From: Neolewinella lacunae
Lineage (GTDB): Bacteria > Bacteroidota > Bacteroidia > Chitinophagales > Saprospiraceae
Assembly (NCBI RefSeq): GCF_014349155.1
Contig: NZ_JACSIT010000142.1
Span: 8,663 to 72,662 of the forward strand
Direction: 5' to 3'
DNA length: 64,000 nt
The translations under genes and the position numbers were made by a program. This document shows, one piece after another, positions 3,620 to 62,600 of the stretch. How positions within the stretch are numbered: the stretch's first letter is position 1; every line of letters begins with the position of its first letter. Under the pieces are notes generated by a model. The model was not told the DNA's origin. It was given only the letters and a program-made list of their open reading frames with translations, and ran no database searches.

Positions 3620-3749
3620 GGGCGCGGCCGCAGGTGCCGTGGAAGTCGAAAGGCCATGCAAGTCACCGGCCAGCTCCTCTTCGTCCCCTTGCTCCTCGTC
3701 CCAACTCCACCCTTCGGGGGGCCGGGGGGGAGCACCTGCGTCCGCGCCT
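3620..3749. repeat. Inverted pair of the GC-rich NotI-type element
   Basis: A plus-strand copy of GGGCGCGGCCGCAGGTGC lies at 3620-3637 and a diverged minus-strand copy (GCACCTGCGTCCGCGCCT) at 3732-3749, enclosing about 94 bases. The right copy carries the longer left flank of the family, a CCACCCTTCGGGGGG hairpin followed by a G7 run. The pair looks like a small element with inverted ends, or two independent insertions in one gap between divergent genes. Confidence 0.8.
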
Positions 3750-3756
3750 AAAACAA

Positions 3757-3788
3757 TTTGTATTGCTCCGGAAAAATACCTACATTTG
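3757..3788 (+). promoter_or_regulatory. Bacteroidota sigma-A type promoter
   Basis: TTTG at 3757-3760 is separated by 20 bases from TACATTTG at 3781-3788, a perfect match to the Bacteroidota -7 consensus TAnnTTTG. Transcription would start near 3795, 21 bases before the ATG at 3816. The -33 box lies only 7 bases from the repeat at 3732-3749. Confidence 0.75.
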
Positions 3789-3815: not shown

Positions 3816-4508
3816 ATGAAGAAGCAAAAGGTAAACCGGAAGTACAATTTTCCCGACGCCGACCTCTACCAGATGTGCACCGACGCCATCCGGCTGGCCC
3901 AGCGCGACCTGGAACACTTTAAGGATTACGACTACGACGCGCACCGCCTCAAAGGCTTCCTGACCCGCTGCCAGAAGTTCATTGACGTGCCCGACGACGA
4001 CGAGCTGCTCGGCGACCAAATGGTGGTGACCGACAAAAAATACGAGGCCGCCGAAAAAGTCCGCCACGCCATCCGCTCCGTCATGACCCGCGTCCGCCTC
4101 CAATTCAGCAACCGCACCGGCCGCTACCGCAAATTCGGCACCGCCAAAATTGGGGATATGACCGACGCCCAACTCCTCTTCTGCGGCCGCCGCGTCATCC
4201 GCGTAGCCCGCGCCCAGTGGGATTTCCTGGCCGAAACCGGTCTCAACGAAGGCCACCTCGAAAAACTCTCCAAAGCCTGCCACGCCTTCGAACTGGCCAT
4301 GAACATCCAACAAGATAAAGTCGCCGACCGCGACATCGCCGTCGAAAACCGCATCGACATCGGCAACCTCCTCTACGAAGAACTCATCAAAGTCTGCGAC
4401 ATCGGCAAAGACATCTGGGCCGAAACCGACCGCACCCGCTACGACGCCTACTGCATCTACGACTCCAACAACGAACAGAAAATCATTGCCAAGCGGGGGA
4501 AGGAGTGA
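3816..4508 (+). CDS. Conserved hypothetical helical protein
   Basis: The 230-residue soluble protein has no signal peptide or membrane segment. It is rich in charged and aromatic residues and is predicted to be mostly helical, with repeated stretches such as YQMCTDAIRLAQRDLEHF and YEAAEKVRHAIRSVMTR. I recognise no catalytic motif. It has its own promoter (3757-3788) and ends four bases inside a heptamer repeat tract. The ATG at 3816 is preceded by a short 5' leader. I believe similar proteins occur in other Bacteroidota, but the function is unknown. Confidence 0.7.
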   Translation: MKKQKVNRKYNFPDADLYQMCTDAIRLAQRDLEHFKDYDYDAHRLKGFLTRCQKFIDVPDDDELLGDQMVVTDKKYEAAEKVRHAIRSVMTRVRLQFSNRTGRYRKFGTAKIGDMTDAQLLFCGRRVIRVARAQWDFLAETGLNEGHLEKLSKACHAFELAMNIQQDKVADRDIAVENRIDIGNLLYEELIKVCDIGKDIWAETDRTRYDAYCIYDSNNEQKIIAKRGKE

Positions 4509-5130
4509 ATGAATGCGTGAATGATTGAATGCGTGACCGCCGTAGGCAGCAGCGTAGTTAATGCGCTGCCGCACGGGACAGCTGCCGCACGGGACAGCTG
4601 CCGCACGGGAGAGACTGCATACCCCTGCTGAGGTCCAGACGTTCTACGTCGCAGCAATGCCCTTATCTTAGTCCATCTTCGTGTCCTTAGTGGTTCAAAA
4701 AAGGAAGAGAAGCGCCCAAAAACCTCCGTGAGGTCCAGACATTCTACGTCGCAGCTGCCCCAGCCCGGTTCCGGACGTCCCGTCCGGCAAAGCTTTTTTA
4801 GCCCATGGAGTTGCCTGGAGTTGGAGCATGGAGTGGCATGGAGTTTTTTCAGGTCAAGACGTTCTACGTCGCAGCAAAAACACTCATGCGCCCCTCAACG
4901 TGAAACGTCTCGACCTCACGTCGCAGCAATGCCCTTATCTTAGTCCATCTTCGTGTCCTTAGTGGTTCAAAAAAGGAAGCGAAGCGCCCAAAAACGCCCT
5001 TCCCTCGACGTGAAACGTCTCGACCTCACTCCCCGTTAAATCTCTCGACCTCGGTCAAAACATCTCCCCTCTTGCGAAGCAAATGTTAAATTCTACATGT
5101 TGACCGCCGTAGGCAGCAGCGCAGCTAATT
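4505..5130. repeat. Intergenic repeat cluster (heptamers, GCTGCCGCACGGGA, 78-base direct repeat)
   Basis: No gene is seen in this gap. It holds GAATGCGTGAATG-type heptamers (4505-4532), a GACCGCCGTAGGCAGCAGCG block (4531-4550) and three GCTGCCGCACGGGA units (4564-4613). A 78-base direct repeat lies at 4646-4723 and 4918-4995 with one mismatch, containing CTTAGTGGTTCAAAAAAGGA. There are three copies of AGACGTTCTACGTCGCAG or its ATTC variant (4637, 4737, 4857) and two copies of GTGAAACGTCTCGACCTCAC (4900, 5011). Another GACCGCCGTAGGCAGCAGCG block lies at 5102-5121, 14 bases before the next gene. Confidence 0.85.
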
Positions 5131-6559: not shown

Positions 6560-6570
6560 CCTCTACTAAT

Positions 6571-6962
6571 GCGTGAATGCGTGAATGAGGGAATGGGCTG
6601 CCGCAAGCGACTTGGACGATAATTCAATTATTCAGTTATTAGCTTCGCTGCTGCCTGCCGAGGTCGCGCCTTTACTCCTTTTCATCTTTACACCCTTACT
6701 CCTGCCTGTTCGCTGCCGGGGGTGTTCGGGCCCTCAGCCGGAGGATGTTCGGGTGGGGACACCCTCAACCGGGAAATCCGAGCCGAGGGTGTTTTGCCGA
6801 AAAATCCAAGCCGGGCGTGTTCGGGTGGGGACACCCTCAGCCGGACCTTTACGGGCCGGAGACACCCTCCTCAGCCAAGGGGCTATTACGTGCGGCAGCC
6901 TATCCCGTGCGGCAGCCCATTCACGCATTCACGCATTCACTCATTCGCTCATTCGCTCACTC
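6571..6962. repeat. Composite inverted-repeat element containing GTTCGGGTGGGGACACCCTC repeats
   Basis: The gap before the sulfurtransferase gene is bounded by inverted arms. GCGTGAATGCGTGAATG at 6571-6587 pairs perfectly with 6918-6934, and GGGCTGCCGC at 6596-6605 pairs with 6909-6918. The interior carries two direct copies of GTTCGGGTGGGGACACCCTC (6747-6766 and 6819-6838), each followed by a CCGG-containing tail. The same block order, inverted arms of heptamers plus GCxGCCGCACGGG units, recurs at 11343-11815. The open frame through this region (from 6585) is an artefact of the repeats. Confidence 0.85.
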
Positions 6963-7775
6963 ATGCCCCTAATCTCCGCCCCCGACCTCTCCGCCCTCCT
7001 CGGCCAGGCCGATTTGCTGTTGCTGGACTGCCGGCACGACCTCTACCACCCCGCCGCCGGTCGGCAGGCGCACGCGGAGGCCCACCTGCCGGGTGCCCAC
7101 TTTCTCCACGCCGATGAAGACCTCTCCGGCCCCATCATCCCCGGGGAAACGGGGCGCCACCCCCTGCCTGACCCCGCCGTATTCCGGGCCTTAATGGGCA
7201 GCCTCGGCCTGCGCCCCGAACACACTGTGGTGGCCTACGACGATAAAGGCGGAGGCATCGCCGCCCGCGCCTGGTGGCTGCTGCGCGCGCTGGGCCACGA
7301 AAAAGTAATGGTCCTCGACGGCGGCTACCCCGCCTGGGTAGCGGCGGGCTTGCCCACCGATGCCAATCCCGTCAACCGGCCCGGAGGAGCGCCCCCGTCT
7401 CACCTCGCTCCCCATTACCAACTAAGCACCTGCGACCGCGCCCAAGTAGCCACCCTGCCCGCCGATTTTCTCTTAATCGACTCCCGCACCGCCCCCCGCT
7501 ACCGCGGCGAAGAGGAAGACGTGGACCCCATCGCGGGCCATATCCCCGGTGCCATCAACCTGCCCTGGCCCGAAAACCTGCAGGACGGCCGCTTTAAGTC
7601 GCGCGAGGCACTAAAAATCCGCTTCGCCGACCTGCGCGACGAAGCGGACCATAATGTTTTTTACTGCGGCTCCGGCGTCACCGCCTGCCACAATATCCTG
7701 GCGTACTACTACGCTTTTGGCGAAATGCCCGCCCTTTACCCCGGTAGCTGGAGCGAGTGGATTACGCCTGCCTAA
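6963..7775 (+). CDS. Thiosulfate/3-mercaptopyruvate sulfurtransferase (two rhodanese domains)
   Basis: From the ATG at 6963 the product is 270 residues, the normal length for this family. The open frame extends upstream only through repeat sequence. The N-terminal inactive rhodanese domain holds LLLDCRHDLYHP and PGAHFLH. The C-terminal domain holds LLIDSRTAPRY, IPGAINLPW and the active loop YCGSGVTACHN, with the catalytic Cys near residue 238. The CGSGVTA form is typical of mercaptopyruvate-type enzymes. It transfers sulfane sulfur from thiosulfate or 3-mercaptopyruvate to an acceptor such as cyanide or a thiol, in the cytoplasm. It ends tail-to-tail with the next gene, the two overlapping by 4 bases. 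Confidence 0.9.
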   Translation: MPLISAPDLSALLGQADLLLLDCRHDLYHPAAGRQAHAEAHLPGAHFLHADEDLSGPIIPGETGRHPLPDPAVFRALMGSLGLRPEHTVVAYDDKGGGIAARAWWLLRALGHEKVMVLDGGYPAWVAAGLPTDANPVNRPGGAPPSHLAPHYQLSTCDRAQVATLPADFLLIDSRTAPRYRGEEEDVDPIAGHIPGAINLPWPENLQDGRFKSREALKIRFADLRDEADHNVFYCGSGVTACHNILAYYYAFGEMPALYPGSWSEWITPA

Positions 7776-8786: not shown

Positions 8787-8804
8787 GCACCTGCGGCCGC
8801 GCCC
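8787..8804 (-). repeat. GC-rich NotI-type element copy
   Basis: GCACCTGCGGCCGCGCCC is a perfect minus-strand copy of the family core. It sits in the gap between two minus-strand genes, right after the terminator-like hairpin of the upstream gene. Confidence 0.85.
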
Positions 8805-9607: not shown

Positions 9608-9644
9608 GGGCGCGGCCGCAGGTGCCGGGGGAGATCGCCCCCGG
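9608..9644 (+). repeat. GC-rich NotI-type element followed by hairpin
   Basis: A perfect core copy at 9608-9625 runs directly into CCGGGGG-AGATCG-CCCCCGG (9625-9644), a seven-base perfect stem. The remaining gap (9499-9815, between divergent genes) shows no gene. Confidence 0.8.
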
Positions 9645-11342: not shown

Positions 11343-11815
11343 ATAATGGAATAAACGAATAAATGACCGCCGTAGGCAGCAGCGCAGCTCATAAGCTACC
11401 GCACGGGACACGCTACCGCACGGGACACGCTACCGCACGGGTCACGCTACCGCACATGAAGCACCCCGGTTGAGGGTGTCCCCACCCGAACGACCCCGCT
11501 GCACGAAACAAGCAAGGGTGACCAAGCAAATAAGTGACCGCCGATAGACAGCAGCGCAGGAACAGCATTCTGGAAAATGCTGTTCCTCCCAAAACACCTA
11601 GGTTTCAATACAGAAAATCGAAAAACCCTTGACGGTCAATTCCTTACCTCAAAATTTGCCACTAAAACAACCAGCAAAAATTATCTTATTGCACCAAACT
11701 TGCCTTGCATCCACCAGCGCCCATTAGCTACGCTGCTGCCCCCGGCGGTCACTCCTGCCTGCCTCGTGCGGTAGCCCATTCACTCATTCACTCATTCGCT
11801 CATTCACTCATTAAA
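11343..11815. repeat. Second composite inverted-repeat element with internal hairpins
   Basis: GACCGCCGTAGGCAGCAGCG at 11365-11384 pairs with its imperfect mirror at 11727-11750. CTACCGCACGGGACACG-type units (11395-11455) mirror GTGCGGTAGCCC at 11767, and TCATTCAC heptamers end at 11815. Inside are an inverted copy of the GTTCGGGTGGGGACACCCTC family (11465-11491) and a perfect 11-base hairpin, GGAACAGCATT (11559-11569) with AATGCTGTTCC (11576-11586). About 110 bases of AT-rich sequence (11587-11700) show no convincing gene. Confidence 0.85.
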
Positions 11816-14800
11816 AAAGCCCATCCACCCACCGCCAGGGCAACCACCCCTCCAGCGCCAGCCGGAAGCTGAGCCGGTTTAGCACGTTGCCGTTTTGGTC
11901 CAGCAGGTTTCGGGTGGTGGGGTCGGCAACGAGGGGGAGGTAGAACCCCATCCGCCCTGCGGCCGCCGTAATCGAAACCCCGCCTACCCAGCTGAAGATG
12001 CCCTGCTGCGGCTCCACGCTCGTTGCCTTGAAACTGTAGTAACCCGCGTCAAGGAAAAGCCCCAGGGGCAGGGGGCGGAAGGGAAGATCCGCATCCACGT
12101 TGAGCGCTACCAGGAAGTCGTTGCTCCGCCCAAAAACGAAGGCTGGCCCGATCGGTGCCCGAAAGCCGCCCTGCCGCTGTTCCAACTGCTGGCCCGGCCA
12201 GCTGCTTTGGCTGGCGTTGAGGCTGCGACCGAAGTAGAGGTCGTCGTAGCGGTAGTCGCTTATGCCATTATCCACCAGCGCCAGGGCGGAAGCCGGGTAG
12301 GTGGCCCGCTCGCGCAGGTCGTTCACCAAAAAGTAGCCCCCGTAGAGGCGGTAGCGCAAAAAGCGGTCGGCTTCGTACTGGTAGCCGCCCCGGAAGCTGG
12401 CGTCCAGCCGCAGGTGGCTGGCCTCGAAACTGCTGCTCACGCTCGCGTCGCGGTCTTTGTATTCCAGGGCGACGGACCACTCCGTGGGCCGCAGTTCCCG
12501 GTCGCGGCGCTGCGTATAACCCAGGCGGTAAAAGCGGTTGCCCTGTCGCTGGGTGCCCACGGGTTGCGGACTGTTCTCAAAGCGGGGGCGGTCTTGGCGC
12601 AGGTCGATGATTTGGATAAAAAGGCGGCGTTCGCGGCCCGTGATCGGAGGGTCAGCGAAGAAGACTTCGGCCTTCAGGGCGTGGCGTTGGTAGGCGTAGG
12701 CCTGGTCGGTTTGGGGCAGCGTGAAGTCGCTGAAACGTTGCGTGCCCAGGCTCAGTAAAACTTGTTGGATACCGGGCGTTGGGCGCAGCAGGCGGTAGCG
12801 CGCGCCGGCCATCCCCGCCAGCTCGCTGCTGCGGGTACCGTAGAGCGGGGCCAGGATCCACTCCAGGCGGCGGGGCTCAAGTGTCCGGTTGTGCAGGGCC
12901 AGGCCGGCCAGCAAGCCATCGTGGGCGTTGTAGCCCAGCAGGGGGGAAACAAACAGTTGCTTTGCGTCCGTACGTTCCGCGCTGGTCCCGGGTTTCAATT
13001 GCCAGCTTTTGCCGCCGCGCTGGTTGTTGTGCGTGTACAAATCCAGGGGATTACCGGCCGGGGGCAGGAGTACGGATCGGGCATCGCCGGTAGCCAGGGT
13101 GCGCTGCTGGGGGTGGAGGCGGACGGTATCCAGGGAGCCGGAGGGGCTGCTGATTTGCGCGGTCGCAGGTGCCAGGCGCGGTCCGCGGTGCGCAAGGGAA
13201 GTCGTGCCCGCCTTAGTCCTTGGCCCCACGCGCCAGTCGCTGGTAGCCGTTGAAGTCAGCGCCGCCGCAAACCAGGGGCCAAAGTCTTCGCCCAATTCTT
13301 CCGCCAGGACCGCAAAAAAATCTTCCGGCCCGGGGTGGCGAAACTGCCAGCGCTGGTAGTACGCCCGCACGGCGGCGTCGAGTCGCTCCGTCCCCACGTA
13401 GGCCGCCAGTTCGTGGAGGGCCAGACTGGGCTTGCTGTAAGCCCCCACGCCGTAGTTGAGGTAAGAGAGGCTGTCGGAGCGGGTGTCCGGGGCCTGGTCT
13501 TTGCCCTGCCGCGCCAGAAAGTGGTAACCGAGGCGGTTCAGGTCGATGGCACCGAAGAGGGGCAAGGTGTACGAGCGGTCGGGGTAATACCCGGCCATGT
13601 AGCGTTGCTCGTAGTAGGAATTGACGCCTTCGTCAAGCCAGGGGTGGTCGCGTTCGTTACTGGCCAAAATGCCGTAAAACCAGTTGTGGCCAACTTCGTG
13701 GGCCAGCACTTCATCCAGCGCAGCGGCGTCTTCGCTCAGGCCAATGACGGTGATCATGGGGTACTCCATTCCACCGCCCGCGCTGAGGGCCGATTGCAGC
13801 CCCGTCACCTGGGGGTAGGGGTAAGGACCGATGTGCTGATGGTAAAATCGCGTGGCCCGTTTCAGGTAGTCGGTCGCTTCCCGCCAGAGTCCGGCCTGGC
13901 TCTCGGTGAAGAAAGCCCAGACGTCGGTCGTCCCCGGCTGCTCCCCCTTGGGGGGTTGGGGGGCCAACGAACTCCCCCCTTTGGGGGGTCGGGGGGGAGC
14001 ACCTGCGGCCGCGCCCACCTCCGAAAGCCGCAAGGTATCGTGCAGCACCTTGAAGCGCTTATCGGCAAACCAGGCGAAGTCGTGCACGTTTTCGGCCAGG
14101 TAAGTCAGGGTCTTGCGCGTGGTGGCCGAGGGCGGAAAGGGCTCGCGGACGTAGCCCTCGGAAAGGTCCGTGCGTTGCGCCAGGGCCGCCCGGTCAGTAG
14201 CCGCTTTTTCCAGTAGCCAGGTCCGTTCCGCCGCCTCCTGCAGTACACCGGTGGCCCCAACGACGTAATTTTCAGGCAGCGTGATTTGTACCCGGAAACT
14301 ACCGAACTCACTGAAAAATTCCCCCTGGTCGAGGTAAGGCAGCGGGTGCCAGCCCGCCCGGTCGTAAACGGCGGGCTTGGGGTACCACTGGCTGATTTGG
14401 TAGCTCTCGCCCACGTGGCCGAGGCGGGAAAAAGACGCGGGAATTTGGACGCGAAACGGCGTTTCCAGTACCACCACACCCCCGGGCACCAGGGGCGAGG
14501 GCAGTTGCAGCAAGAGGAGGTCGGGGGAATCTCCAAACGTGTATTCGGCCGCTACGCCATCCACCGTGAAGCGGAGGCTATCCAGCGTCCCCCGCTCTGC
14601 CGCAGACGCAAAGTGGAAGTCCGTTTGCCCATTGCGCAGTTGCTGCCGGGCGAAGGCTGATGCGTCGGAACCATAAGCCCGCGGCCAGCAGTGCAGCCAG
14701 ATCTCCCGCAAAGTATCGCCCGAATGGTTGGTATACGTCAGGCGAAGCTGGGCCGAAAGTTGGTGACGGACGTCATCCAGCGCAACCGAAATGTCGTAAT

Positions 14801-14912: not shown

Positions 14913-14935
14913 CGGCTGGTTGGGTTGGAGGGGAC

Positions 14936-14961
14936 AATTCAGTAATTGGTGCCACTGAATT
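14936..14961. promoter_or_regulatory. Inverted repeat upstream of M1 peptidase gene
   Basis: AATTCAGT (14936-14943) and ACTGAATT (14954-14961) form a perfect 8-base inverted repeat with a 10-base spacer, 24 bases upstream of the start codon. It could be an operator or a 5'-leader hairpin. Confidence 0.35.
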
Positions 14962-15001
14962 TTGACCACCGGCGGAGGTCGCTACCTGTTACACCGCAGA
15001 T

Positions 15002-21911: not shown

Positions 21912-21990
21912 TTCAGTAGTTCATAGTTCATAGTTCATAGTTCATAGTTCAGTAGTTGATAGGGAAACTAACGACTAGTGAACTATCGAC
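21909..21990 (+). repeat. AGTTCAT heptamer hairpin after stop codon
   Basis: Tandem AGTTCAT/AGTTCAG units follow the stop codon. GATAGTTCAGTAG at 21908-21920 pairs, with one mismatch, with CTAGTGAACTATC at 21976-21988. This is one of five such tracts in the window and may serve as a terminator or mRNA 3' stabiliser. Confidence 0.7.
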
Positions 21991-22022
21991 TAACTTTACC
22001 GGGTAAAAGCCAGCACATCACC

Positions 22023-22823: not shown

Positions 22824-22841
22824 GGCGCGGCCGCAGGATGC
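22823..22841 (+). repeat. GC-rich NotI-type element abutting murQ stop
   Basis: GGGCGCGGCCGCAGGATGC is the family core with one inserted base. Its first G is the last base of the murQ stop codon, TAG. Confidence 0.8.
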
Positions 22842-22880: not shown

Positions 22881-22952
22881 GTTCGGTAGTTTTGTAGTTG
22901 GGTAGTGGACAATACCGTACTACCGAACTACAGTACTACAAAACTACCGAAC
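22881..22952. repeat. Perfect 18-base stem hairpin of the heptamer family
   Basis: GTTCGGTAGTTTTGTAGT (22881-22898) pairs perfectly with 22935-22952 around a 36-base loop. It lies between murQ and the haemoglobin gene and may terminate or stabilise the murQ transcript. Confidence 0.8.
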
Positions 22953-23045
22953 TACAGCACTACATTCCTGCCTTCCAAAATCCGTTGGAGACCAATTAGT
23001 GGTGATTATCGCCAAGGCCTCAACCTCACATTCAATTACTTCCCC

Positions 23046-24228: not shown

Positions 24229-24278
24229 GACTCTCCGTACCTTGCTGCCGCGTTTGCGCAAAAAAAACACACTCACTA

Positions 24279-51386: not shown

Positions 51387-54300
51387 TTACTCTTTCACCA
51401 GGCGGCCAGCACCGCTCTCGGCACCAGCTCCTACCCGGTAATGGTACACGCCTGCGGGTAAGGTACGGAGATCAAGGCGGAAGGACTGGTTGCCCGCCGG
51501 GAGCACTTGCTGGCGCTGGATGACGGGGCGGCCCAAGGCATCGAAGACCGTCAGCGATACCCTTTCCGTAGCAGGCAGGACGAAGCGGATATCGGCGTAC
51601 TCCACCGCCGGGTTGGGGGCGGCCGGAAGAAGCAGGAAGCGGGGCAGCGTTTCCGTCGCCAGCTGAATGGATGGGGTGAGGCGACGCCAGTCCGCATCGT
51701 AGGCCGCACTGCCAAAACCAGGGGTGGTAGTGAAGGACAGCGGCAACTCGCCGGGGGTGTAGTCCGTCCCGACACGCACGGCTACTTCAACGATCCCGGC
51801 ACCTGCGTTCAGCGCCCAGGATGCGCCGGTGTTGCTGTACCAGCTCAAACGGGCCTCGCCCCGCTCCAGAAGACGCGTACCTACCTGCAAATCAGGCAAA
51901 TCTGCGCTTGCAACGGAGACGATTTCAATGCCCGCTGCCGCCCGCAGCAGCCCTTGGAAAGACACCAGGGCGGTATTTTCGGGCAGACGCAGACGCAGCA
52001 GATAGGTCTCGCCAGCGGTGGGCGCGGCGGGCCAGCTCAGTTCGAGCGGCAAGTCCCCGACGCTGCGTGCCAGGTCGGCATCGCTGAGCAAATCACCGGT
52101 CTTCATGCCGGTAAACATCACCAGGGTGTCGCTGGAAAGCATAATCTCCGCACGGCGCGGGGCGGGGAAGACGTTGTCGCGGTTCCAGTCGGCGGGGAAT
52201 GTGTGGTGGTCGGGGACGAAAGTCCAGGGGCCGCAGCCGGGGATTTCATCGAGGTCCCCGATGAGGATGCGCTGCATCAGGTAGAGGTCCAGGTTGGTGA
52301 ACGACTGGCTGCAATTCATGTCGGCGGCAACCACCTGCAAGGGCGAGGTGATCTGCGGCACCGGATGCCCCAGGAGGTAGCGCTGGGCCAGGAAAACCTC
52401 AAAGCTGGAGAGCCCGTTGCGGGGGTCACCCGCCCGCACGGGTTGCAGGTAGTACATCTGGCCCAGGTTCAGACCGGCCAGGGTAGAGGCCAGCCCGTTG
52501 GCGTCTTGGGGGAGGGTCAGCGTGTAGTTGCCACCCTCTTCGGAGAGTTCGTAATCGACGTTGTCAATCGCCTCATCGTCCATGTCGTAGGCCTGGGTGC
52601 TGATGTGGCCGAGCAGGTTTTCGGCTACGGTCACGAAGCCAGGCAGGTAGTTGGCGGGCAGGAGCGTCGGCACGCCGTTCTGGACTGAACTGATCTCCAG
52701 GCTTACGGGACTGTTGACGAGCTGGATATCGGTAGAGCCTACCGTATTGCCGAGGTTGAGGTGGATGAAGAAGAGCACTTCAATGTTGCCATTCAGGCTT
52801 ACCCCGGCCGTGCCGTTGGACACGAAGGAGAATGTCCGGTTCTGGGGGTTGAACTGCGGCAAGATGGCTCCGGCGGAGACGTGAGTGATGGTGGCCAGGC
52901 CCGGCTGGTCTAAGGCAAAAGTGCCCGCAATCGTCGCCAGGTTGCTCACCCCTTGCAGGGAGACGGGGATGCGGACGGAATTGCCCGCAAAACTGCTGGC
53001 TCCGCCAATGACTACCTGGACGTTGCTGGCGTTGGCCACCTGTACCGTCTGGCAGGCCGTATTGGGCCCGCAAGCGTTGGTCACCGTCAGGCAAACGTTG
53101 TAAGTGCCCGCCCCGGCGTAGGTGTGCTCAGGGTCGCGCAGGGTGGAAGTACCGCCGTCGCCGAAGGTCCAGGCGTAAGTCCCCGGCGAAGAAGCATTGG
53201 TGAAGCTCCGCACCAGGCTATTGCCCTGGGAGGTAAAAGCAACCGTGGGAATGGCCCCACTACCCCCCCCCGTCACGGCGCTGAAGGTCGTCTCCGTACA
53301 CCCCTCGGCGCTGAAGGCGCGCAGCATGTAGTCACCCGGCGGCGCGGCGATGTAAAGGGACTCAGTCACGTCGAGGAACTGGGCGGTGAGCGGACCGGAA
53401 ATCACCACGCGGAAGGGGCCCGTGCCGGCAATGAAATCCAGGTGGAAGCCGCTGCTGTCGCAGCTGTTGTCCACCCGCACATTGTAGAGATTGGCCGAGG
53501 AGGAGGTAATCCGCACCGTCTCCATATCCATGCACCCGAGGGCATCGGTTACTTTGATTTTGTATTCGCAGGGTGTCCGGTTGTTCAGTTCAAACTCACG
53601 CTCAGTGGTGGTAAACACCGTATCCGTGGTGTTGGTGCACAGGCGGGTGACTTCCACGGTGAAGGGCGGTACGCCACCGTTGATGTCGTTCCAGAGCTGG
53701 TTGAGCTGGTTGCACTCGTTGAAAATCAGCGCGGTTTCCAGGTCCAGGTCGCTGGTGGTGTTATTGATCGTAAACTGCCCGGTCTCGATGCAGCCCAGGC
53801 TGTCCGTCACAAAAACAGTGTAATTACCACTCAGCAGCCCGCCTTGGGTAAAGAGGGTATCGGAGGTTGTGATGCTGCCGTTGGTGGGCCCGGACCAGGT
53901 GATCTGGAAGGGGGCGCGGCCGCGGGTGATGTGGACGTTGAAGGAGCCGGGTTCGTTACAATCCCCGGAGCTGGATTCCAGATCGAACAGGTCGATTGGC
54001 GCAGGAAACACCGTTATGACGTCCATAACCATACAGCCAGCGGCGTCGGTGACGATGATTTTGTAGTCGCAGGGGGGCAGGTCGAACAGTTCAAAGCCAA
54101 CGTCGCCCGTCACAAATTCGGTCATCGTAGTCCCGTCGCAGAGCCGGATGACTTCTACGGAGAAAGGCCCGGTGCCGTTGAAGATGTCTACCCAGATTTG
54201 GTTGTACTGCCCGCACTCGTTATAGATGAGGGCGGCTTCCAACACCAGGTCGTTGGTGGTGGCGACGAGGGTGACGCTCTCCATTTCCGTGCAGCCGTTG

Positions 54301-57300
54301 GCGTCGGTGACCGTGAAGGTATAGGTTCCGGCGGGGGCATTGTTGATGGAAAGGGCGTTGCCATTTACGGTGTTGTTGCCCGACTGGGGTCCGGTATACG
54401 TCACCTGGAAAGGCGGGGTGCCCCGGGTGAAGCTGAGGTCAATCCGGCCGGGTTGGCCGCAGGGACCGCTGATGGGGGTGACGGTAAACAGTTCGGGTTC
54501 TCCGCCTTCCACCTCGGTGGTGGTCATTACCATACAGTCGTTGGCATCCACGACGATGATCTTGTAGGTGCACTCTTCCAGGTCCATCAACTCAAATTCC
54601 AGGCCATTCTGGGTGAAGGTGGTATCGGTCACGCCATCGCAGAGGCGGATGACGGTGATGGTGTAGGGGCCCTCGCCGCCGGAGATGTCGTTCCAGAGTT
54701 GATTGTACTGGCCGCAATCGTCGTTGATGAGGGCGGTCTGGAGTTCCAGGTCGCTGGGGATGTCTTCTACCACCACCACTTCGGTTTCGGTGCAGCCATT
54801 GCGGTCGGTGACCGTGACGGTGTAAGTTCCGGCGGGCAGGTCGGCGATGGTAGCCGTACCGGAAGGCGTGGTGAAGGTGCCAATCTGGGGGCCGGTGTAG
54901 CTGACGGTGTAGGGACCTTGGGCCGCCTCGTTCATCACCTGGATGACGATCTGCCCGGGCTGGCCGCAGATGCCGTCGGTCACCAGCGCATTGAAAAGTT
55001 GGTAGGGGAAGATGGTGACGACCTGCATGGTCATACAGCCATTGGCATCGGTCACCTTGATTTTGTAATCGCAGGGGATGATGTCTTCAATTTCGAAGCC
55101 AGCCGTATCGATCGTGATGGTGGCCTGGGTGCTGTCGCAGAGGCGAATGACCTCCACGGTGTAGGGGGCCTGGCCGCCTTCGATGTCGTTCCAGATTTGG
55201 TAGGGTACCCCACAGTCGTCGGTTACGACGCTGGAGATCACCTCCAGGCTACCGTCGTTGAGCAGCGTTACGGACTGGGTATCTTCACAGCCGTCGGCGT
55301 TGGTCAGTTGGAAAGTGTAGGTTCCGGCCGGCAGGTTGCGGACGCGGTGCATTTGGGAAGCCAGGTTGATGCTGCCGGAGACCGGGCCCGTCCAGGTGAT
55401 GAAGTAGGGAAATTCCCCGGCGGAAACTACCAGGTCAATGGCCCCCAGGCCGCCGCAGGCACCGTCGAGCGGAGTAAGGATGAGGATACCGGCGTTGGGA
55501 TCGACGTCAATCGTCACCGTTCGTACGCTTAGGCAGCCTCCGGCGTCGGTGGCCGTAATGGTGTAGGTGCAGTTGGGCAGGTCGTACAGCTCGAAGGTGT
55601 TGCCATTAAGGGTAAATGCCGTATCCCGTTCGCTGCACGGGGAGGTAACGGTAATGCCGTAGGGTCCTTCGCCGCCGTTGAAGATGGTGCGGATGTTGTC
55701 TTGTTGCCCACAGCCCAGCCCAAAGGAAAAAGATTGCTGCCCGGCATTGGACAGCCCGCCACTGACGGTCAGGTTATAGGTGGCCGTACAGCCGCTGAAA
55801 TCGGTAGCCCGGAAGGTGTAGGTGCCAGCGGGGAGGCTGAGGTTGGCCGTACCGTTACCGCCAATGGTGAGGGAGCCAGTGGCCGCTCCGGTGTACGTTA
55901 CGGTGTAATTGGGGATACCGCCACTGACGGAAAGGCGGAGGCTGGAGTTGTTTCCGTCGCAGGCCGCCGTCAGTTGTTCAACGAGCAGGTTGAGGCTGCC
56001 GCCGTTGTCGCCCACGAAAACGGTGATGACCTGATCGCAGCCGGCACCGTCCCAGATCGAGAAATTGTAGCTGCCGCTGCTCAGGCCGTTGATGACGGTG
56101 ATGGCCTGGCTGGTGTTTACCGTGCCTGCCACCGGACCGGTATAATTAATGGTGTAGGGCGGGGTACCGGCGCTGATCGTGACGCGGGCGGCACCGGGGG
56201 AAGCACAGTTGGCGGCGGTTGCGGAGACCTGGGCCTGGAGGTTTCCGGAGGCGATGGTGACGATCTGCTCGAACACACAGCCAAAAGCATCGGTCAGCGT
56301 GAAGGTGTACTGGCCAGCGGGCAGGCTGCGCACGCGGAAGTTGTAGCCATTGACGGTAGCGCCGCCGTTGACGGGGCCGCGGACCGTTACGTGGAAGGGC
56401 AGGGTACCGCTGCTGGCCCGCACTACGATTTCGCCCAGGTTGTCGTCGCAGCCAGCGGGTTCGCCCCAGACGTCGACGTCAAGGCCGCCGGAAGACTGCC
56501 CGACGGTAACCGTCCGGTTCAGACTACAACCCAGCAAATCAACAATGGTGATTTGGTAGACGCCGGGATTAAGGGGCCGGATGGTAAAGTTGCGGTTGGC
56601 AGTGGTGAGTACGGCATTGCTGGCACCGCTGACGTAAACGACGTAGGGAGCTACGCCGCCGTTGAGGGAAACGCCGATGCTGCCCTCCTGGCCACAGCCG
56701 GCATCGGTGGGGGTCAGGGTTCCGGTGAGGCCTCCGTTGCCCGAAGTAATGGTGAAGTTGAAGGTGATTTCACAGCCGTTGCTGTCTTCGATGACCGTCG
56801 TGTACGTTCCCGGAGGCAGGTCACTAAAGGTAAAAGTTCCCGTATAGCTGATGGCCGTCCGGCAAACGGGGCCAACGTAATGAGCGGTGTAGGTAGGGCT
56901 GCCACCGGTAACCTGAACGGTAATGCTGCCACTGGCCTGTCCACAACCCGTGTTCGTTTGGCTCAGGACCTGGTAGCTGAGGTCGCAGCTGGCCGTACAA
57001 TCTACGCGGAGGGAGTAATTGGAGACTGCGCCGTTGTAGCCGTCTACGACCACAACATAGGTACCCGCCGGCAGGTAGCGGACAATCTGTTCGGGGCTCA
57101 AACCGGGGTTCTGGCTGAACTGAAGGCAACTGCCCCGGTCACATTCCGAAAGCAAAAAGAGTTCGAGGTCGGCGCTTAGTCCCGTCAGGTCGATGGTAAC
57201 CAGGCCGGGCTCGGTGACGGTGAAGGTGTGGACAATTTCCGGACCGTTGTTTTCAACGTTCAGGGTGGGGCCACAGCTGTAGGCGCTCACGTCGTCATTG

Positions 57301-59216
57301 CCACCGGCGTTGGTGCCGTTGTAGGTAACGCCGCAGGTGAGGGGGACGCGATCGCTGCAATCCAGATATCCGCAGCTGAGTTCCAGGCGGTAGTTTCCTC
57401 CGGGCCCGGCGAAAGGGGCGTCTACGACGATGTAGTAAGTTCCGTTGGGGGCGTCTTCCAGGACGATGCCTTCGTTGTTGGTCTGGGTATTCGAGGTGGT
57501 ACTGTAGCCGACGACCTGGTAGTTGTTGCAGTCGCCGCGCAGCAGGAAGATGTCCATATTAAGGCCGGGCGTCATGATTTCGAGGCCAATCTGAATATCG
57601 CCGGCAGAAGTTTTCTGGAAGGTGTAGACGCGGTCGGGGCCCTGCATGAGGACGCCGGTTGCACCGGGGTAACTGGTGAGTTGGTTGCCCGCGCCGACGG
57701 TAGTTTCGTTGGGCAGGTAATCGCCGCAGGAAATTACGGTGGCTTCGGCGCACCAGCCGGAAACGCCGTTGCAGGGGCCGGGGGTGGTGGACTGTACGCC
57801 AGCGGCGGCGGCGAAGCAGGGGTTGATGTAAGTTTCGCCGTTGCAGCCGCAGACGAAGTTGATGGCTGAGCCGCAGTTATCCGGAGAAGTGATTTCGGTG
57901 GGGTCTACGCAGGCGGCGCTGCACGCGCCGGTGGTGTAGCTGCGGACGCCCGCTGCTTCGGCTGCGCAGGCACTGGCGTACTGTTCACCGTCGCAACCGC
58001 AAACGGGGGTATTCCCGCTGGGGCAATTGAGGGTGATGACGCCGGTGGCCAGGTTGGCGGAGGTACCGTTGCTGATGACGACAAGGCTGGGGTCGTAGCA
58101 GCTCAGATCTCCAGGCGAACAAAGGCCGGTGGTGTAGTTGACGACGCCGGCTGCTTCGGCGGTGCAGGCGTTGGGGTAGGTTACGCCGTTGAAACCACAG
58201 ACGGGGGCGTAAGCCGTGGGGCAGGTGGCGCTGGGATTCATGGCGGCGACGTCCAGTCCGGGGTTCCAGCAGGCACCTGGGGTATAGAAGGTAACGCCCG
58301 CCGCATCGGCAAAGCAACTGTTGAGGTAGGTGATGCCGTTTGCGCCGCAGACGGGGCTGACGGTAAAGGAGCAGCCGGCGTCGCTGACGAGGGGCATGCT
58401 GCTGGTGGCAACGCGGTGGGTTCCCATGTTGGCATTGAACAGGACAATGCTATCGATCACAACGCTGCCGTTGAGGAGGTCTTCAGCGCTCACGCCAGTG
58501 GCCAGGGGTAAGGCCAGGCGGGCGATGGAACCGTTGGCGGAGCGGTTCTCGCCACCGAGGTGGGTGGCGGAGAAGTTGAGTTCGTTGCGGGCACTGTCCA
58601 CCGTCATCCAATGGAGCAGGCTGTTGGTTCCGGTCTGGAGCCTTTCGGTCAGAATTTTTTCGGACAGCCGGGTGCTGGCGAAACTGCCACCGGGCAGGGT
58701 GGCCCGAAAACTGATGCCGTGGAAGGAGGGGAAAGCAGCGTTGCGGCCGGTGAGGGACACGTCCAAAAGCAAAAAACTGCCTTCCGCAGTGAGTTGGACG
58801 CCGGCGGGCAGCAGGCGCAGAAGGGCTTCGTAGTTTTCTGTCGTATCGGGCCGGACGTAGGGATCATCGCCGATCGCGCCGTTGCGGGTACGGTACTGGT
58901 TGCGGAGCAGAATGTTGAAATCCCGCGCAGCTACGCGGGCATCGCCATCGGCATCGGCGTGCGCGAAATTGACGCCGCCGGGGAAACTGTTCTCCCAGGG
59001 AGTTCCCATCGCCTGGCCGTACCAGGCGGTAGACGCGTGCGGGCGTTCTTCCCCTTTGGTGTTGAAGGCGTGGCCGAGGTAGAGAAAGTCTACGCCGTTC
59101 ACCACGCCGTTGTGGTTGGCATCACCCGGCCAGACCAACGTTTCCTGGGCCGTAAGGGGATGAGCAGGGAGAAAAGCAAGCGTAAAAAGCGCAAGTAGTG
59201 TAAACGTGTAGTGCAT
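51387..59216 (-). CDS. Giant T9SS-secreted adhesin: dockerin-like, Kazal, SprB-like repeats, PKD, cohesin, CTD
   Basis: The 2609-residue protein has a signal peptide and this order. Residues ~30-110 hold dockerin-like calcium loops (DANHNGVVNGVDFLYLGHAF). Four Kazal-type inhibitor domains (~281-480; CSFTVSPVCGANGITYLNSC and three relatives) follow, then two pre-peptidase-like sheets (~485-740). About 14 SprB-like repeats (~742-1975) of the form GxPPYxVxxxGP...GxYxxxVTDxxGC come next. A PKD domain (~1978-2062; YAWTFGDGGTSTLRDPEHTY) and a cohesin-like domain (~2068-2200) follow. Two dockerin-type repeats (~2259-2320) precede a type A T9SS CTD (FLLLPAAPNPAVEYADIRFV). Likely an adhesive surface fibre with protease-inhibitor modules; SprB is the gliding adhesin of Flavobacterium. 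The 442-base gap upstream (59217-59658) shows no gene. Confidence 0.88.
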   Translation of the reverse strand: MHYTFTLLALFTLAFLPAHPLTAQETLVWPGDANHNGVVNGVDFLYLGHAFNTKGEERPHASTAWYGQAMGTPWENSFPGGVNFAHADADGDARVAARDFNILLRNQYRTRNGAIGDDPYVRPDTTENYEALLRLLPAGVQLTAEGSFLLLDVSLTGRNAAFPSFHGISFRATLPGGSFASTRLSEKILTERLQTGTNSLLHWMTVDSARNELNFSATHLGGENRSANGSIARLALPLATGVSAEDLLNGSVVIDSIVLFNANMGTHRVATSSMPLVSDAGCSFTVSPVCGANGITYLNSCFADAAGVTFYTPGACWNPGLDVAAMNPSATCPTAYAPVCGFNGVTYPNACTAEAAGVVNYTTGLCSPGDLSCYDPSLVVISNGTSANLATGVITLNCPSGNTPVCGCDGEQYASACAAEAAGVRSYTTGACSAACVDPTEITSPDNCGSAINFVCGCNGETYINPCFAAAAGVQSTTPGPCNGVSGWCAEATVISCGDYLPNETTVGAGNQLTSYPGATGVLMQGPDRVYTFQKTSAGDIQIGLEIMTPGLNMDIFLLRGDCNNYQVVGYSTTSNTQTNNEGIVLEDAPNGTYYIVVDAPFAGPGGNYRLELSCGYLDCSDRVPLTCGVTYNGTNAGGNDDVSAYSCGPTLNVENNGPEIVHTFTVTEPGLVTIDLTGLSADLELFLLSECDRGSCLQFSQNPGLSPEQIVRYLPAGTYVVVVDGYNGAVSNYSLRVDCTASCDLSYQVLSQTNTGCGQASGSITVQVTGGSPTYTAHYVGPVCRTAISYTGTFTFSDLPPGTYTTVIEDSNGCEITFNFTITSGNGGLTGTLTPTDAGCGQEGSIGVSLNGGVAPYVVYVSGASNAVLTTANRNFTIRPLNPGVYQITIVDLLGCSLNRTVTVGQSSGGLDVDVWGEPAGCDDNLGEIVVRASSGTLPFHVTVRGPVNGGATVNGYNFRVRSLPAGQYTFTLTDAFGCVFEQIVTIASGNLQAQVSATAANCASPGAARVTISAGTPPYTINYTGPVAGTVNTSQAITVINGLSSGSYNFSIWDGAGCDQVITVFVGDNGGSLNLLVEQLTAACDGNNSSLRLSVSGGIPNYTVTYTGAATGSLTIGGNGTANLSLPAGTYTFRATDFSGCTATYNLTVSGGLSNAGQQSFSFGLGCGQQDNIRTIFNGGEGPYGITVTSPCSERDTAFTLNGNTFELYDLPNCTYTITATDAGGCLSVRTVTIDVDPNAGILILTPLDGACGGLGAIDLVVSAGEFPYFITWTGPVSGSINLASQMHRVRNLPAGTYTFQLTNADGCEDTQSVTLLNDGSLEVISSVVTDDCGVPYQIWNDIEGGQAPYTVEVIRLCDSTQATITIDTAGFEIEDIIPCDYKIKVTDANGCMTMQVVTIFPYQLFNALVTDGICGQPGQIVIQVMNEAAQGPYTVSYTGPQIGTFTTPSGTATIADLPAGTYTVTVTDRNGCTETEVVVVEDIPSDLELQTALINDDCGQYNQLWNDISGGEGPYTITVIRLCDGVTDTTFTQNGLEFELMDLEECTYKIIVVDANDCMVMTTTEVEGGEPELFTVTPISGPCGQPGRIDLSFTRGTPPFQVTYTGPQSGNNTVNGNALSINNAPAGTYTFTVTDANGCTEMESVTLVATTNDLVLEAALIYNECGQYNQIWVDIFNGTGPFSVEVIRLCDGTTMTEFVTGDVGFELFDLPPCDYKIIVTDAAGCMVMDVITVFPAPIDLFDLESSSGDCNEPGSFNVHITRGRAPFQITWSGPTNGSITTSDTLFTQGGLLSGNYTVFVTDSLGCIETGQFTINNTTSDLDLETALIFNECNQLNQLWNDINGGVPPFTVEVTRLCTNTTDTVFTTTEREFELNNRTPCEYKIKVTDALGCMDMETVRITSSSANLYNVRVDNSCDSSGFHLDFIAGTGPFRVVISGPLTAQFLDVTESLYIAAPPGDYMLRAFSAEGCTETTFSAVTGGGSGAIPTVAFTSQGNSLVRSFTNASSPGTYAWTFGDGGTSTLRDPEHTYAGAGTYNVCLTVTNACGPNTACQTVQVANASNVQVVIGGASSFAGNSVRIPVSLQGVSNLATIAGTFALDQPGLATITHVSAGAILPQFNPQNRTFSFVSNGTAGVSLNGNIEVLFFIHLNLGNTVGSTDIQLVNSPVSLEISSVQNGVPTLLPANYLPGFVTVAENLLGHISTQAYDMDDEAIDNVDYELSEEGGNYTLTLPQDANGLASTLAGLNLGQMYYLQPVRAGDPRNGLSSFEVFLAQRYLLGHPVPQITSPLQVVAADMNCSQSFTNLDLYLMQRILIGDLDEIPGCGPWTFVPDHHTFPADWNRDNVFPAPRRAEIMLSSDTLVMFTGMKTGDLLSDADLARSVGDLPLELSWPAAPTAGETYLLRLRLPENTALVSFQGLLRAAAGIEIVSVASADLPDLQVGTRLLERGEARLSWYSNTGASWALNAGAGIVEVAVRVGTDYTPGELPLSFTTTPGFGSAAYDADWRRLTPSIQLATETLPRFLLLPAAPNPAVEYADIRFVLPATERVSLTVFDALGRPVIQRQQVLPAGNQSFRLDLRTLPAGVYHYRVGAGAESGAGRLVKE

Positions 59217-59658
59217 AGCTCGGGATTATGGGAAAAATTGTGTCGTCCTTCATAGCTGGGGGCCAGGGAAAGGATCCAGAACCACCCGGTAAGTCAAAAA
59301 CAAAAAACGCTGCGATCGCTGGAGGGCACGTAGGGAAGCCGCTTCGGTGGTTGAGCCCCGCCGAAGGAGGTTGGTTTAACTTCACTTTACGCTCTCTACT
59401 AACGCAAATCTTCAAAAAACGAGGGCCGGGGTCTTGCGGCTCAGAAGATGGGACTACAGAACTTTCCAATAGTCACCTTCCGAACAGCGGAGCGTCGGAA
59501 CCACTCTAAAGCATAAAGATAAGCAAAAGCGGAAATGGAAAAGGTTAATTCTCCTCACATTAATCCTTTCCCGCATTCGTCGGTACCGGATACTCAAGCA
59601 AGTTACCTATTGACTTGTTCGGTTTATCTTGGCGGAATTATCCCTTAGCACCCCGATT
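59217..59658. other. Intergenic gap between divergent genes, no gene seen
   Basis: This stretch lies between the giant adhesin and the sugar dehydrogenase genes. Open frames through it have no recognisable product. It should hold both promoters: TATCTTGG at 59624-59631 is a seven-of-eight -7 match for the plus-strand gene; none is evident for the minus strand. Confidence 0.5.
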
Positions 59659-62600
59659 ATGCCGTTTCCTTCCTTCATTCGTTTTTCCCTGGTTTCGTTA
59701 CTGTTGGCGGGTCTTTTTCTGCTGCCGGGATGCGATTCTTCCCCGGCGGGTGGTTTTGAGGTCGTCTCGTTGCCGGCGGATGGTCCGGTGCTGGTGGTGG
59801 GTAGCCCGGAGCGTAGCTTACTGGAACGGATCAGGCAGGGCCTGCAGCAGGATACGCGGCTGGCGGCGTACCGGATGCTGGACGAAGACAGCCTTTTCCA
59901 GTACCGCAACCTCGTCTTGCAGCGGCCGTTGGCGGACAGCATGACGGCGCACCGGCGGACGGCGGTTGAGCGCTTCGTCCTGGCGGGCGGCCGCTTGCTG
60001 ATTGTGGACGAGCGGCCGGCGGTGCGGTACGCCTGGGATTGGTACGCGCGGATGATCGACAGCAGCCGCCAGGATCTGGCCGTGGGCCGGGGAGCGGTAT
60101 TGCACGTGAAGGACCAGAGCGCGCCGGTGGGGACGTTCTTCGCTCCTTCAACTTCCCTGGCACCTGCGGCCGCGCCCACCGGAAGTGCGGCGGCGCTGCG
60201 ACTGCCCCCGGCGGCACCAAAGGACGACCGTTTCCAGATTGAGGTGCTGGACAACGACATCTACGAGCCCATGGAAATGGAGGTATTGCCTACGGGCGGC
60301 GTGCTCTTTCTGGAGCGGCGCGGCAAGATGAAATTTTTCGACCGGGGCCAAACGAAGGTGGTCCACGACTTTGCGGTGTGCATTGAGGGCAACTACGAAG
60401 ACGGCCTCCACGGGCTGGCGCTCGACCCCGGCTACGGGCAGGACAATGACTACATTTACCTGTACTACAGTCCGGCGCCCTGCGACTCGACCGACCAGTT
60501 GCTTTCGCGTTTCCGTTTCCGGGACGGCGTGCTGGATACGGCCAGTGAGCAAGTGGTGCTGCGGGTGGCCGTGCAGCGCGAAACCTGTTGCCACTCCGGC
60601 GGAAGTGTGGAATTTGGTCCGGACGGCCTCCTGTACCTGAGCACGGGCGACAATACGAGCAGTAAGGAAAGCGATGGTTACAGTCCGCTCGACGAGCGCC
60701 CGGGGCGTGGCCCGTACGACGCCCAAAAATCCAGTGGCAACACCAATGATCTGCGGGGGAAGATCCTCCGCATCCGCCCCACGCCCGAGGGGGGCTATAC
60801 CATTCCGGAGGGCAACCTCTTTGCGGACGGCAAAGGCGGTAGGCCGGAGATTTACGCGATGGGCTGCCGCAACCCTTTCCGCATTGCGATTGACCCGTGG
60901 ACGAACTACCTCTACTGGGGGGACGTGGGGCCGGACGTGGGCCAGGACGGCCGCTACGGCCCGCAGAGCTACGACGAGTGGAACCAGGCCCGGGCGGCGG
61001 GCAATTTTGGCTGGCCCTATTTTGTGGGCAACAACTTTGCTTACCCCAGCCGCGACTTTGCCACCGACCAGGTTGGGGCGCTTTACGACCCTGCGCGGCC
61101 CATCAACGCCTCGCCGAACAACACGGGCGCGCGGGAGTTGCCGCCGGCCCAGCCCGCCTTTATTTGGTACCCCTACGGCCCGAGCAAGGAATTTCCCGTT
61201 CTGGGCCAGGGCAGCCGCTCGGCCATGGCCGGCCCTTTTTACGATCCGGCGCGCCTGGTGCCCATCACGAACAGCGCTCTGCCAGAGTACTACCATGGCA
61301 AGTGGTTCATTTACGAGTGGGCCCGCAGCTGGATTAAGGTGGTAACGCTGGACAGTGCGCGGCAAAACATTGTACAGATTGAGGACTTCCTGCCGGAGTT
61401 CCCGATCAGCAAGCCCATTGATTTTAAAATTGCCCCCGACGGCTCGATCTACCTGCTGGAGTACGGCAACGACTACTTTTTGAACAACCCCGACGCGCGG
61501 CTCGTCCGCATCAGCTACTCGGCCCGCAACCGTCCGCCCCTGGCCCAGCTGACGACCGACGAAACGGCCGGGGGCTTGCCCTTTCAACCGACGCTCAGTG
61601 CGGAAGGGAGCAGTGACCCGGATCCGGGTGACAGCCTGAGTTACCGCTGGTTCATCGACGGAGCTTTTCAGGGCGAAGGCATAAATTTCCAGCCCGTCTT
61701 GACGCAGCCGGGCAGCTACCTCGTCCGCCTGGAAGTGCGGGATGCGGAGGGCGGCACGGCGGAGGCGACGGTCAATCTGGCGGCGGGCAACGCACGGCCG
61801 GCGCTGGCCCTGGAGCTGGAGGGCAACCGTTCTTTCCTACTGCCGGGGCGTTCGCGGCTGCGCTACGCCGCCAAAGTGGAAGACCCCGAAGACCGCGCAG
61901 CGGGCAAGCTATCGCAAGACCGGGTATTGGTGAACGCTACCTGGATTGAAGACGAGGCGCTGGCGACGGGCCTGCGCCGCGGCGAACAGCAGTTGCCGAG
62001 TGGCAACCTGGCCTACGCCCGCGGAGCGGCGCTGATGGCGGCCTCCGACTGCTCCACCTGCCACAAAGAGCGGGAAGAAAACGTGGGGCCGCCCTACCTG
62101 AGGATTGCCGAGCGCTACGACGATGCGCCGGAGACGATTGCGCGCCTGGCGGGCAAGGTCATCAAAGGCGGCAACGGGGTGTGGGGCGAGCGGCTGATGT
62201 CGGCCCACCCCACCCTGAGCCCGGCGGAGGCGGAGACGATGGTGGGTTACATCCTGGCGCTCAACAACGGTGGCTTGCCAGTGGCGGGGCAGGTGAGCCC
62301 GGGTGCGGGCGCGGGCAGCTACGTGCTGGCAGCGAGCTACCGCGACGGGGGTGGCAAGAATACGCCACCACTGGTGGGACAAAAGACGGTGGTGCTGCGT
62401 GCGCCCTGGCTGGAGGCGGAGCGGGCCCACGATGGGCTTTACCGCGCCGGGGTTCCAGGCAGTGGGCAGCCGGGGGCTTTTCGCATCGTCACCTTCCGTC
62501 CGGGGGGCTGGCTGCGGCTGGCCGACATCCACCTGCTGGGCATCCGCCAGGTGACGGCCCACCTGCACGCCAATGCGCCGGGCGTACTGGAATTGCGCTA

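Follow-up and report, generated by a model that had tools for sequence, protein, structure and literature searches.

We analysed a window of 64,000 nucleotides from Neolewinella lacunae (assembly GCF_014349155.1, contig NZ_JACSIT010000142.1, positions 8,663-72,662; "the window" hereafter means this whole stretch). Scattered over it are copies of a dispersed 18-base core, GGGCGCGGNCGCAGGTGC (position 9 free), followed by a more loosely conserved downstream extension. The word is present in hundreds of copies in the genome, is strictly spelled, differs between species in the manner of dialects and is kept in place at several orthologous sites. It is very probably a signal by which DNA is recognised as self. 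Judged by analogy, the explanation that we favour, at slightly better than even chances, is that the core and its extension form a self-recognition signal that is read by a protein and works most likely like the DNA uptake sequences (DUS) of Neisseria and the Pasteurellaceae. Uptake as the purpose of this signal, taken by itself, stands at about one half.

Abundance, anatomy and placement of the core

The comparison set consisted of 148 genomes: that of N. lacunae (G000, 5.82 Mb; the own genome), 20 other genomes of the genus and 127 genomes from outside it. Mismatch spectrum, placement and hairpin counts were obtained on a 460-kb sample of the own genome; genes, in this sample and in the window, were called by a simple script, with no gene finder. 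In the window, 17 places match the core GGGCGCGGCCGCAGGTGC with at most three mismatches, as compared to a mean of 0.33 and a maximum of 2 in 100 shuffles. The core is thus commoner than base composition predicts, in agreement with an initial annotation of the window, which had described about 14 copies of a palindromic element. All 14 are present where it placed them, nine exact and five with one to three mismatches, but three were overlooked, at 7426 (one mismatch), 47093 and 53912 (two each). It had the gene context right for the copies in the M1 peptidase (two), egtB and the sugar dehydrogenase, and copies inside genes are indeed in frame and often code for Ala/Gly/Pro linkers.

The genome-wide search that the annotation had proposed gave 879 exact copies of the core in the own genome, 448 on one strand and 431 on the other, and no copy of the reversed pattern. 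The exact core was found in 19 of the 148 genomes, namely the own genome and 18 of the 20 other genus members, and in none of the 127 genomes outside the genus. A scan of named genomes returned, among the best 80 of at least 102 stretches, records of Neolewinella, Lewinella, Saprospiraceae and Bacteroidia, plus unrelated records; in most of the unrelated ones among these 80, the downstream extension is lacking as judged by eye.

The spelling is strict. In the 460-kb sample, 79, 26, 16 and 20 copies have 0, 1, 2 and 3 mismatches, respectively, so that perfect copies outnumber those with one mismatch. The corresponding means for 20 permuted cores are 0, 0.05, 0.15 and 6.25, and the reversed core gave 0, 0, 1 and 28. 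The spectrum therefore peaks at zero to two mismatches, and the matches with three mismatches are mostly background. Position 9 is C in 58, A in 10, T in 7 and G in 4 of the 79 perfect copies. The core is therefore no palindrome, at variance with the initial annotation. None of its six reading frames contains a stop codon, as read from the sequence.

The unit as a whole is asymmetric. Its left edge is sharp; conservation falls steeply beyond the 18 bases, and what remains of it downstream is weaker: A or G at +19 and +20, G at +22, G or T at +26 and +27, and purines to about +40. This stretch ends in a box near GGAGCAAGG, which is matched in at least 7 of 9 bases within 110 nt of 57 of the 79 perfect copies, as compared to about 21% of random stretches. 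The annotation had also reported a long form, in which a C-run/G-run hairpin is added to the core. This form is real: a run of six C lies within 25 nt of 31 of the 121 cores with at most two mismatches in the sample.

As for placement, intergenic DNA makes up 18% of the sample by these gene calls (82% being coding) but holds 49 of the 79 perfect copies; the other 30 lie inside called genes. Among 57 coding copies (at most two mismatches), 38 run against the gene strand and 19 along it. Convergent gaps hold 18 of the 62 intergenic copies with both neighbours called, and make up 18% of intergenic bases. Pairs of neighbours within 250 bp are all inverted (11 of 11, among the 121 cores), eight of them facing each other. 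The one such pair that was folded gave a 92-nt hairpin with nearly complete pairing (-74 kcal/mol, z -10.8). Two single copies and one long form folded no better than shuffles (z +1.5, +2.2 and +0.3). At spacings above 250 bp, successive cores mostly point in opposite directions (69 pairs, as compared to 36 with the same direction, over own contigs C16, C19, C22 and C30 and the window).

Dialects of the word and its upkeep in place

Dialects were studied by scanning 100-460 kb of each genus genome for k-mers and by counting patterns on whole genomes. Exact counts of the GGGCGCGG, GGGCGCTG and GGGCGGGG types, in this order, were 879, 111 and 3 in the own genome; 24, 663 and 1 in G013; 14, 1 and 294 in G017; 53, 2 and 474 in G011; 7, 0 and 222 in G004; 41, 3 and 205 in G008; and 352, 14 and 286 in G005. 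G013 therefore has 663 copies of its own T7 word, GGGCGCTGNCGCRGGTGC, versus 24 of the own-genome dialect; the reversed control of the G013 pattern gave 5 matches in G019 and 1 each in G003, G004 and G007. Further spellings were found in three genomes. G001 has none of the GGGCGCGG type and carries GGGCGGCGGAGCGCAGGT, the inner 11-mer of which occurs 19 times in 200 kb. G006 carries TTTTGCGCCGGAGCGCRGG (inner 10-mer 11 times and full motif 5 times in 100 kb), and G010 has 299 copies of GGCTANCAAAGTAGCA, a motif with 0 copies in the 20 other genus genomes. Counts of all three types are low in G012, G015, G016 and G020. Outside the genus, small samples of 40-100 kb from each of eight genomes (G022, G023, G025, G040, G042, G043, G044 and G047) yielded no comparably strong 10-mer (top z 7.2).

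In a midpoint-rooted tree of the M1 peptidase from 14 genomes, one clade groups G004, G011, G006, G020, G012 and G016, and the second groups the own genome with G002, G013, G005, G018, G007, G014 and G003. The GGGCGGGG type leads in G004, G011, G012, G016 and G020, all in the first clade. The fit between dialect and clade is however imperfect because N. persica (G005), in the second clade, is mixed.

In order to follow individual sites, we aligned codon by codon the orthologues of four genes of the window, which together contain five sites. At site 60160, in the hypervariable linker of the GSDH-type dehydrogenase, the core is kept with at most one mismatch in five of nine relatives (G002, G005, G014, G007 and G018). 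Among the six carriers, the own genome included, the fixed bases are 98% identical, as compared to 40% for position 9 and 39-54% for the adjacent 30-nt flanks. G013 shows here its own dialect, deviating in the first two bases. G008 has GGGCGGGGCCACGGGTGC, which differs by one base from its prevailing GGGCGGGG dialect; G012 and G016 have no core at this site. M1 peptidase site 13155 behaves similarly. The core is kept with at most two mismatches in three of 13 orthologues (G002, G005 and G018), G013 is a fourth with its dialect, again with the first two bases off, and the other nine are without core; over four of 14 genomes, own included, identity is 91% at the fixed bases, 17% at position 9 and 41-54% in the flanks. 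In the rhodanese gene, all six orthologues retain at least 15 of 17 bases at site 7426, where the peptide TCDRAQ is itself largely conserved. The same linker is thus found in orthologues in these three cases (dehydrogenase, M1 site 13155, rhodanese), which argues against the in-frame insertion, like that of Rickettsia palindromic elements, proposed in the initial annotation. This proposal is not supported for most of the sites tested and is supported for the long form, to which we return below.

Dialect words in place were also seen elsewhere. The egtB linker holds the exact core in G014, a partial one (13/17) in G002, the G010 motif in G010, and 7-12 of 17 bases in the six orthologues fetched together with those of G014 and G002. 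G013 has an exact T7 word at the site orthologous to own_C16:81986. Finally, one conserved protein aligns without gap between G005 and the own genome, with 88% identity in the flanks, and has APAAAP in both; G005 encodes this peptide with an exact core, the own genome with six different codons and no core. The dialects found in place and this synonymous case make independent insertions at the same place hard to invoke; maintenance of a signal, together with its re-spelling, can account for both.

These observations were extended to 210 orthologue comparisons at 37 query sites, which are reciprocal and not independent, and in which M1 peptidase orthologues weigh heavily. The core was scored as any of six spellings; rows with less than 45% or more than 95% identity, or in which the core was not spanned by 12 residues, were dropped. 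The labels Nau and Npe duplicate the G014 and G005 assemblies, and near-identical matches were removed by the 95% limit. The core is kept in 111 comparisons, partial in 4 and absent in 95. In the 69 comparisons with a flank identity of 50% or more, it is kept in 44 (38 gap-free), partial in 3 and absent in 22, 16 of which have a gap nearby. Ten of these 16 gaps are one residue long and nine fall in one M1 loop. As judged from these alignments, insertion appears to explain few of the tested copies.

Proposed role in uptake, rival explanations and the C-rich cassette

We infer that a sequence-specific DNA-binding protein reads the word and, with less certainty, that the reading step is DNA uptake. 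Competent cells would take up DNA carrying their own dialect, and recombination would spread and repair the word. Copies would then accumulate, nearly perfectly spelled, where they are tolerated, that is in intergenic gaps, terminator-like inverted pairs and variable protein linkers. A C-rich hairpin cassette, which lies between core and downstream box, would use the core as a landing place.

Uptake of DNA by its sequence is well established for two groups of proteobacteria, and Campylobacter has a methylation-linked form. Neisseriaceae DUS resemble the present word in their many dispersed copies, species dialects, inverted pairs and permissive sites, and in being conserved amid diverged surroundings (PMC3630211, PMC2397512). 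Here, however, the word is different, its core has 18 bases, the phylum is another, no convincing pilus ATPase was found, G010 uses a quite different word and viral contigs carry the word. The uptake signal sequences (USS) of Pasteurellaceae likewise combine a strict core with weaker adjacent segments and come in two types within one family; their published traits include an anomalously strict consensus and an origin by substitution, not insertion (PMC1626085). The USS core has 9 bp with two AT-rich segments, whereas we observe 18 bp and a purine-rich, partly A/T-rich downstream stretch. There are also more dialects within this one genus than among Pasteurellaceae USS.

Several observations weigh against uptake, or against a signal kept in place. 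ComEC is encoded in all 21 genus genomes, but it is common beyond the genus (75 of 80 genomes of the whole set) and therefore proves little. Matches to PF00437 (type IV pilus/type II secretion ATPase) in 20 of the 21 genomes cover at most about 84 of 370 positions and lie at or below the cut-off of 24.9 bits, the best reaching 25.5 bits with its neighbours. With matches so short and weak, no pilus motor is evident and the known uptake machine seems to be missing, other pilus genes not having been searched. In addition, known DUS and USS have 9 to 12 bases and the core is longer, some genus members have few copies of the three types (50, 2 and 1 in G015; 33, 3 and 58 in G012), and the downstream A/T tract that is visible in relatives is faint in the own genome. 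At the orthologous sites, the identities given for the dehydrogenase and M1 peptidase were computed among genomes picked for carrying the word, and the APAAAP case would fit a gain in G005 as well as a loss in the own genome. Of the 95 comparisons without core, 77 have a gap nearby, so that insertion may account for those. Finally, one 44.6-kb viral contig encoding a collagen-repeat protein (L330, L344, L359, L388, L393) carries 7 exact copies in the fetched stretches; this contrasts with Neisseria DUS, reported to be absent from recently acquired genes (PMC2397512).

In the 20 kb around the own-genome ComEC, 10 of 15 called open reading frames (ORFs) were scanned and no other competence family was recognised, DprA, ComF and ComEA not having been specifically searched. 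In Riemerella, transformation requires ComEC, DprA, ComF, RecA and four proteins of unknown function, and the essential proteins include some without homology to well-characterised machinery (PMC8459023). We put forward, tentatively and at somewhat less than even chances, a specific form of the uptake reading: an uptake-signal system without type IV pilus, with an outer-membrane reader, fast change of specificity, at least six dialects (one a different word), re-spelling in place, carriage by phages and a cassette landing in one host species.

The word might instead serve the chromosome itself, as a maintenance or self-protection word like HIP1 or Chi that is bound by a nucleoid, repair or defence protein and copied by phages to pass as own. 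This seems rather unlikely, though it is the rival that we take most seriously. Upkeep in place and dialects would follow equally from it, and the failure to find a convincing pilus ATPase is in its favour. It would also fit the viral contigs. The word occurs on contigs of a viral collection (83 stretches, of which 80 loci were fetched), among them one of 38.7 kb with a tape measure protein (L355, L358) and 3 exact copies. Downstream marks accompany 25 of 87 viral copies; in the own genome they accompany 20 of the 79 perfect copies and 92 of 5000 40-mers drawn at random. Phages might gain from resembling host DNA, and the self-protection explanation predicts the same. Chi, however, shows strand bias, and none was detected for the core along five contig stretches of the own genome. 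HIP1 of cyanobacteria is, like the present word, short, iterated genome-wide and of unsettled function, but it is an 8-base palindrome, constant in the described instances and tied to methyltransferases (PMC4390886), whereas the core is asymmetric, not palindromic and variable between species. Moreover, the literature ascribes inverted pairs and changing dialects to uptake signals. In the viral set, the density of the word on the 44.6-kb contig is like that of the host chromosome; the word also occurs at viral loci L333, L327, L363 and L380, and similar contigs keep two sites.

An insertion element, either like repetitive extragenic palindromic (REP) sequences with their REP-associated tyrosine transposases (RAYT) or like Rickettsia palindromic elements jumping into genes in frame, is improbable for the word as a whole. 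REP/RAYT repeats are dispersed, often in inverted pairs, and Rickettsia palindromic elements are dispersed and lie in frame in genes. The present word differs from both, as the two single copies folded form no hairpin, no RAYT link is seen and copies are kept in place at several sites; dialects in place, the synonymous codon change and the steep fall of conservation outside the 18 bases are further points against insertion. The gaps near 16 of the 22 well-flanked comparisons without core would suit an insertion element, although most of them are one residue long and nine lie in one M1 loop. The RAYT-like mobiliser suggested in the initial annotation was rejected. Y1_Tnp (RAYT) genes occur in 20 of the 21 genus genomes (two in the own genome), but none was found in G018, which has 429 core copies in a 95% complete assembly. 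Furthermore, cores with at most three mismatches are not enriched around RAYT genes, with 22 in the 95 kb of the 30 loci fetched as compared to 141 in the 460-kb sample of the own genome. An in-frame palindromic insertion element is likewise largely rejected for the bare core, which is no palindrome and which is kept in orthologues at three tested sites.

The cassette argues for insertion. Its start, CGCAGGTGCTCCCCCCC, was found 181 times as an exact match in the own genome and in none of the 20 relatives. All 26 hairpins in the 460-kb sample lie within 60 nt of a core and none away from one; the window has three, each directly behind a core (Table 1). A mobile-looking cassette, confined to the own species, therefore appears to ride on the signal. 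At M1 site 13999, all 13 orthologues are gapped by 18-29 residues opposite the core and its C-rich hairpin, and in this loop (L172, L177) a core-like word (15/17) is present in G002 and one on the other strand in G020. From the alignments, this site would be either a true gain or a hypervariable loop. Thus, the insertion-element explanation is largely refuted for the bare core and open for the cassette, which is probably a separate small mobile or copied element using the core as a landing place.

A role linked to transcription, as a terminator or a regulator binding site, is more doubtful still. The strong hairpin of the folded inverted pair, the intergenic position of most perfect copies and the share of convergent gaps (18 of 62 copies for 18% of intergenic bases) would agree with it, but 30 of the 79 perfect copies are inside called genes and only 11 pairs within 250 bp were found among 121 cores. 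Lastly, the sequence is 58-60% GC, and a GC-rich word could arise as a by-product of composition or codon use; with 17 copies against 0.33 expected in the window, no reversed pattern genome-wide and none of 127 outside genomes positive, this explanation can be dismissed with near certainty, being refuted by shuffles, by permuted and reversed cores and by absence outside the genus.

If the uptake explanation is correct, Neolewinella would provide a third, independent case of sequence-specific uptake, in another phylum, with many dialects per genus and no evident pilus motor. Such a case would open the question of how hundreds of sites in a genome can change in step with their reader, and would offer a concrete handle on transformation in Bacteroidota. 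If uptake is not its purpose, the strict spelling, rapid evolution and genome-wide spread of the word, and what reads it, call for explanation just as much. In the open-licence literature, from which most subscription journals are missing, we found no report of uptake sequences in Bacteroidetes/Bacteroidota, nor of a Lewinella palindromic repeat or natural competence, and no mention of four spellings of the core; the initial annotation's view of an apparently undescribed dispersed repeat in Bacteroidota stands with respect to that literature.

Copies in the window and further repeats

The copies in the window are listed in Table 1. The one at 35099-35159 falls inside a called ORF of 161 residues (35099-35584) that may not be real.

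Table 1. Copies of the core in the window
Feature	Position	Strand	Context
Core, exact	3620-3637	+	Intergenic; inverted pair with 3732
Core, 1 mismatch besides position 9; long form with C-rich hairpin, cassette 3689-3749	3732-3749	-	Intergenic
Core, T at position 9	7426-7443	-	Inside rhodanese gene 6585-7775; at least 15/17 bases in 6/6 orthologues, core gap-free
Core, exact	8787-8804	-	Intergenic
Core, exact	9608-9625	+	Intergenic
Core TTGCGCGGTCGCAGGTGC	13155-13172	+	Inside M1 peptidase gene 11811-14969
Core 13999-14016 with C-rich hairpin cassette	13956-14016	-	Inside M1 peptidase gene; 18-29-residue gaps in 13 orthologues
Degenerate core, 3 mismatches	22823-22840	+	Overlaps stop codon of gene 21978-22823
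Core, exact	23467-23484	-	Outside called genes
Core, T at position 9	25213-25230	+	Intergenic
Core, T at position 9	30558-30575	-	Near 5' end of called ORF 29852-30613 (DUF2064); start codon uncertain
Core 35142-35159 with C-rich hairpin cassette	35099-35159	-	Just upstream of egtB
Core, exact	36081-36098	+	DinB-FGE linker of egtB (35581-36870; DinB_2 and FGE-sulfatase)
Core, exact	41949-41966	+	Near 5' end of called histidine kinase ORF 40716-42011; start codon uncertain
Core TGGCGCGGACGCAGGTGC, 2 mismatches	47093-47110	+	Outside called genes
Weak core, 2 mismatches	53912-53929	+	Giant repeat protein 51387-59216; gap-free in 3 orthologues aligned
Core, exact	60160-60177	-	Linker of GSDH-type dehydrogenase 59629-62823 (Pfam GSDH)

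Other repeats were observed in the window. Arrays of 7-8 bp units (TAGTTCA, GTAGTTCA), some of them mutually inverted, occupy positions 21901-21962, 22913-22964, 24149-24232, 26753-26795 and 29662-29847. A repeat around CTTAGTGGTTCAAAAA, partly with GCTGCGCAGC, occurs in both orientations at 4666-4717, 4938-4989, 62803-63055 and 63247-63298. Repeats of the 8-bp CATTCACT, with inverted copies, are found at 4502-4540, 6566-6604, 6898-6961 and 11757-11812, tandem GCTGCCGCACGGGACA units lying near two of them. Positions 1-119 and 2072-2190 form a 119-base direct repeat, 97% identical. Outside the window, G017 (L289-L293) carries two further dispersed repeats, GTCGGCCGAC with TCGTCCGCCGACT, and clustered CGCGGCGAGACGCCACGAACC units.

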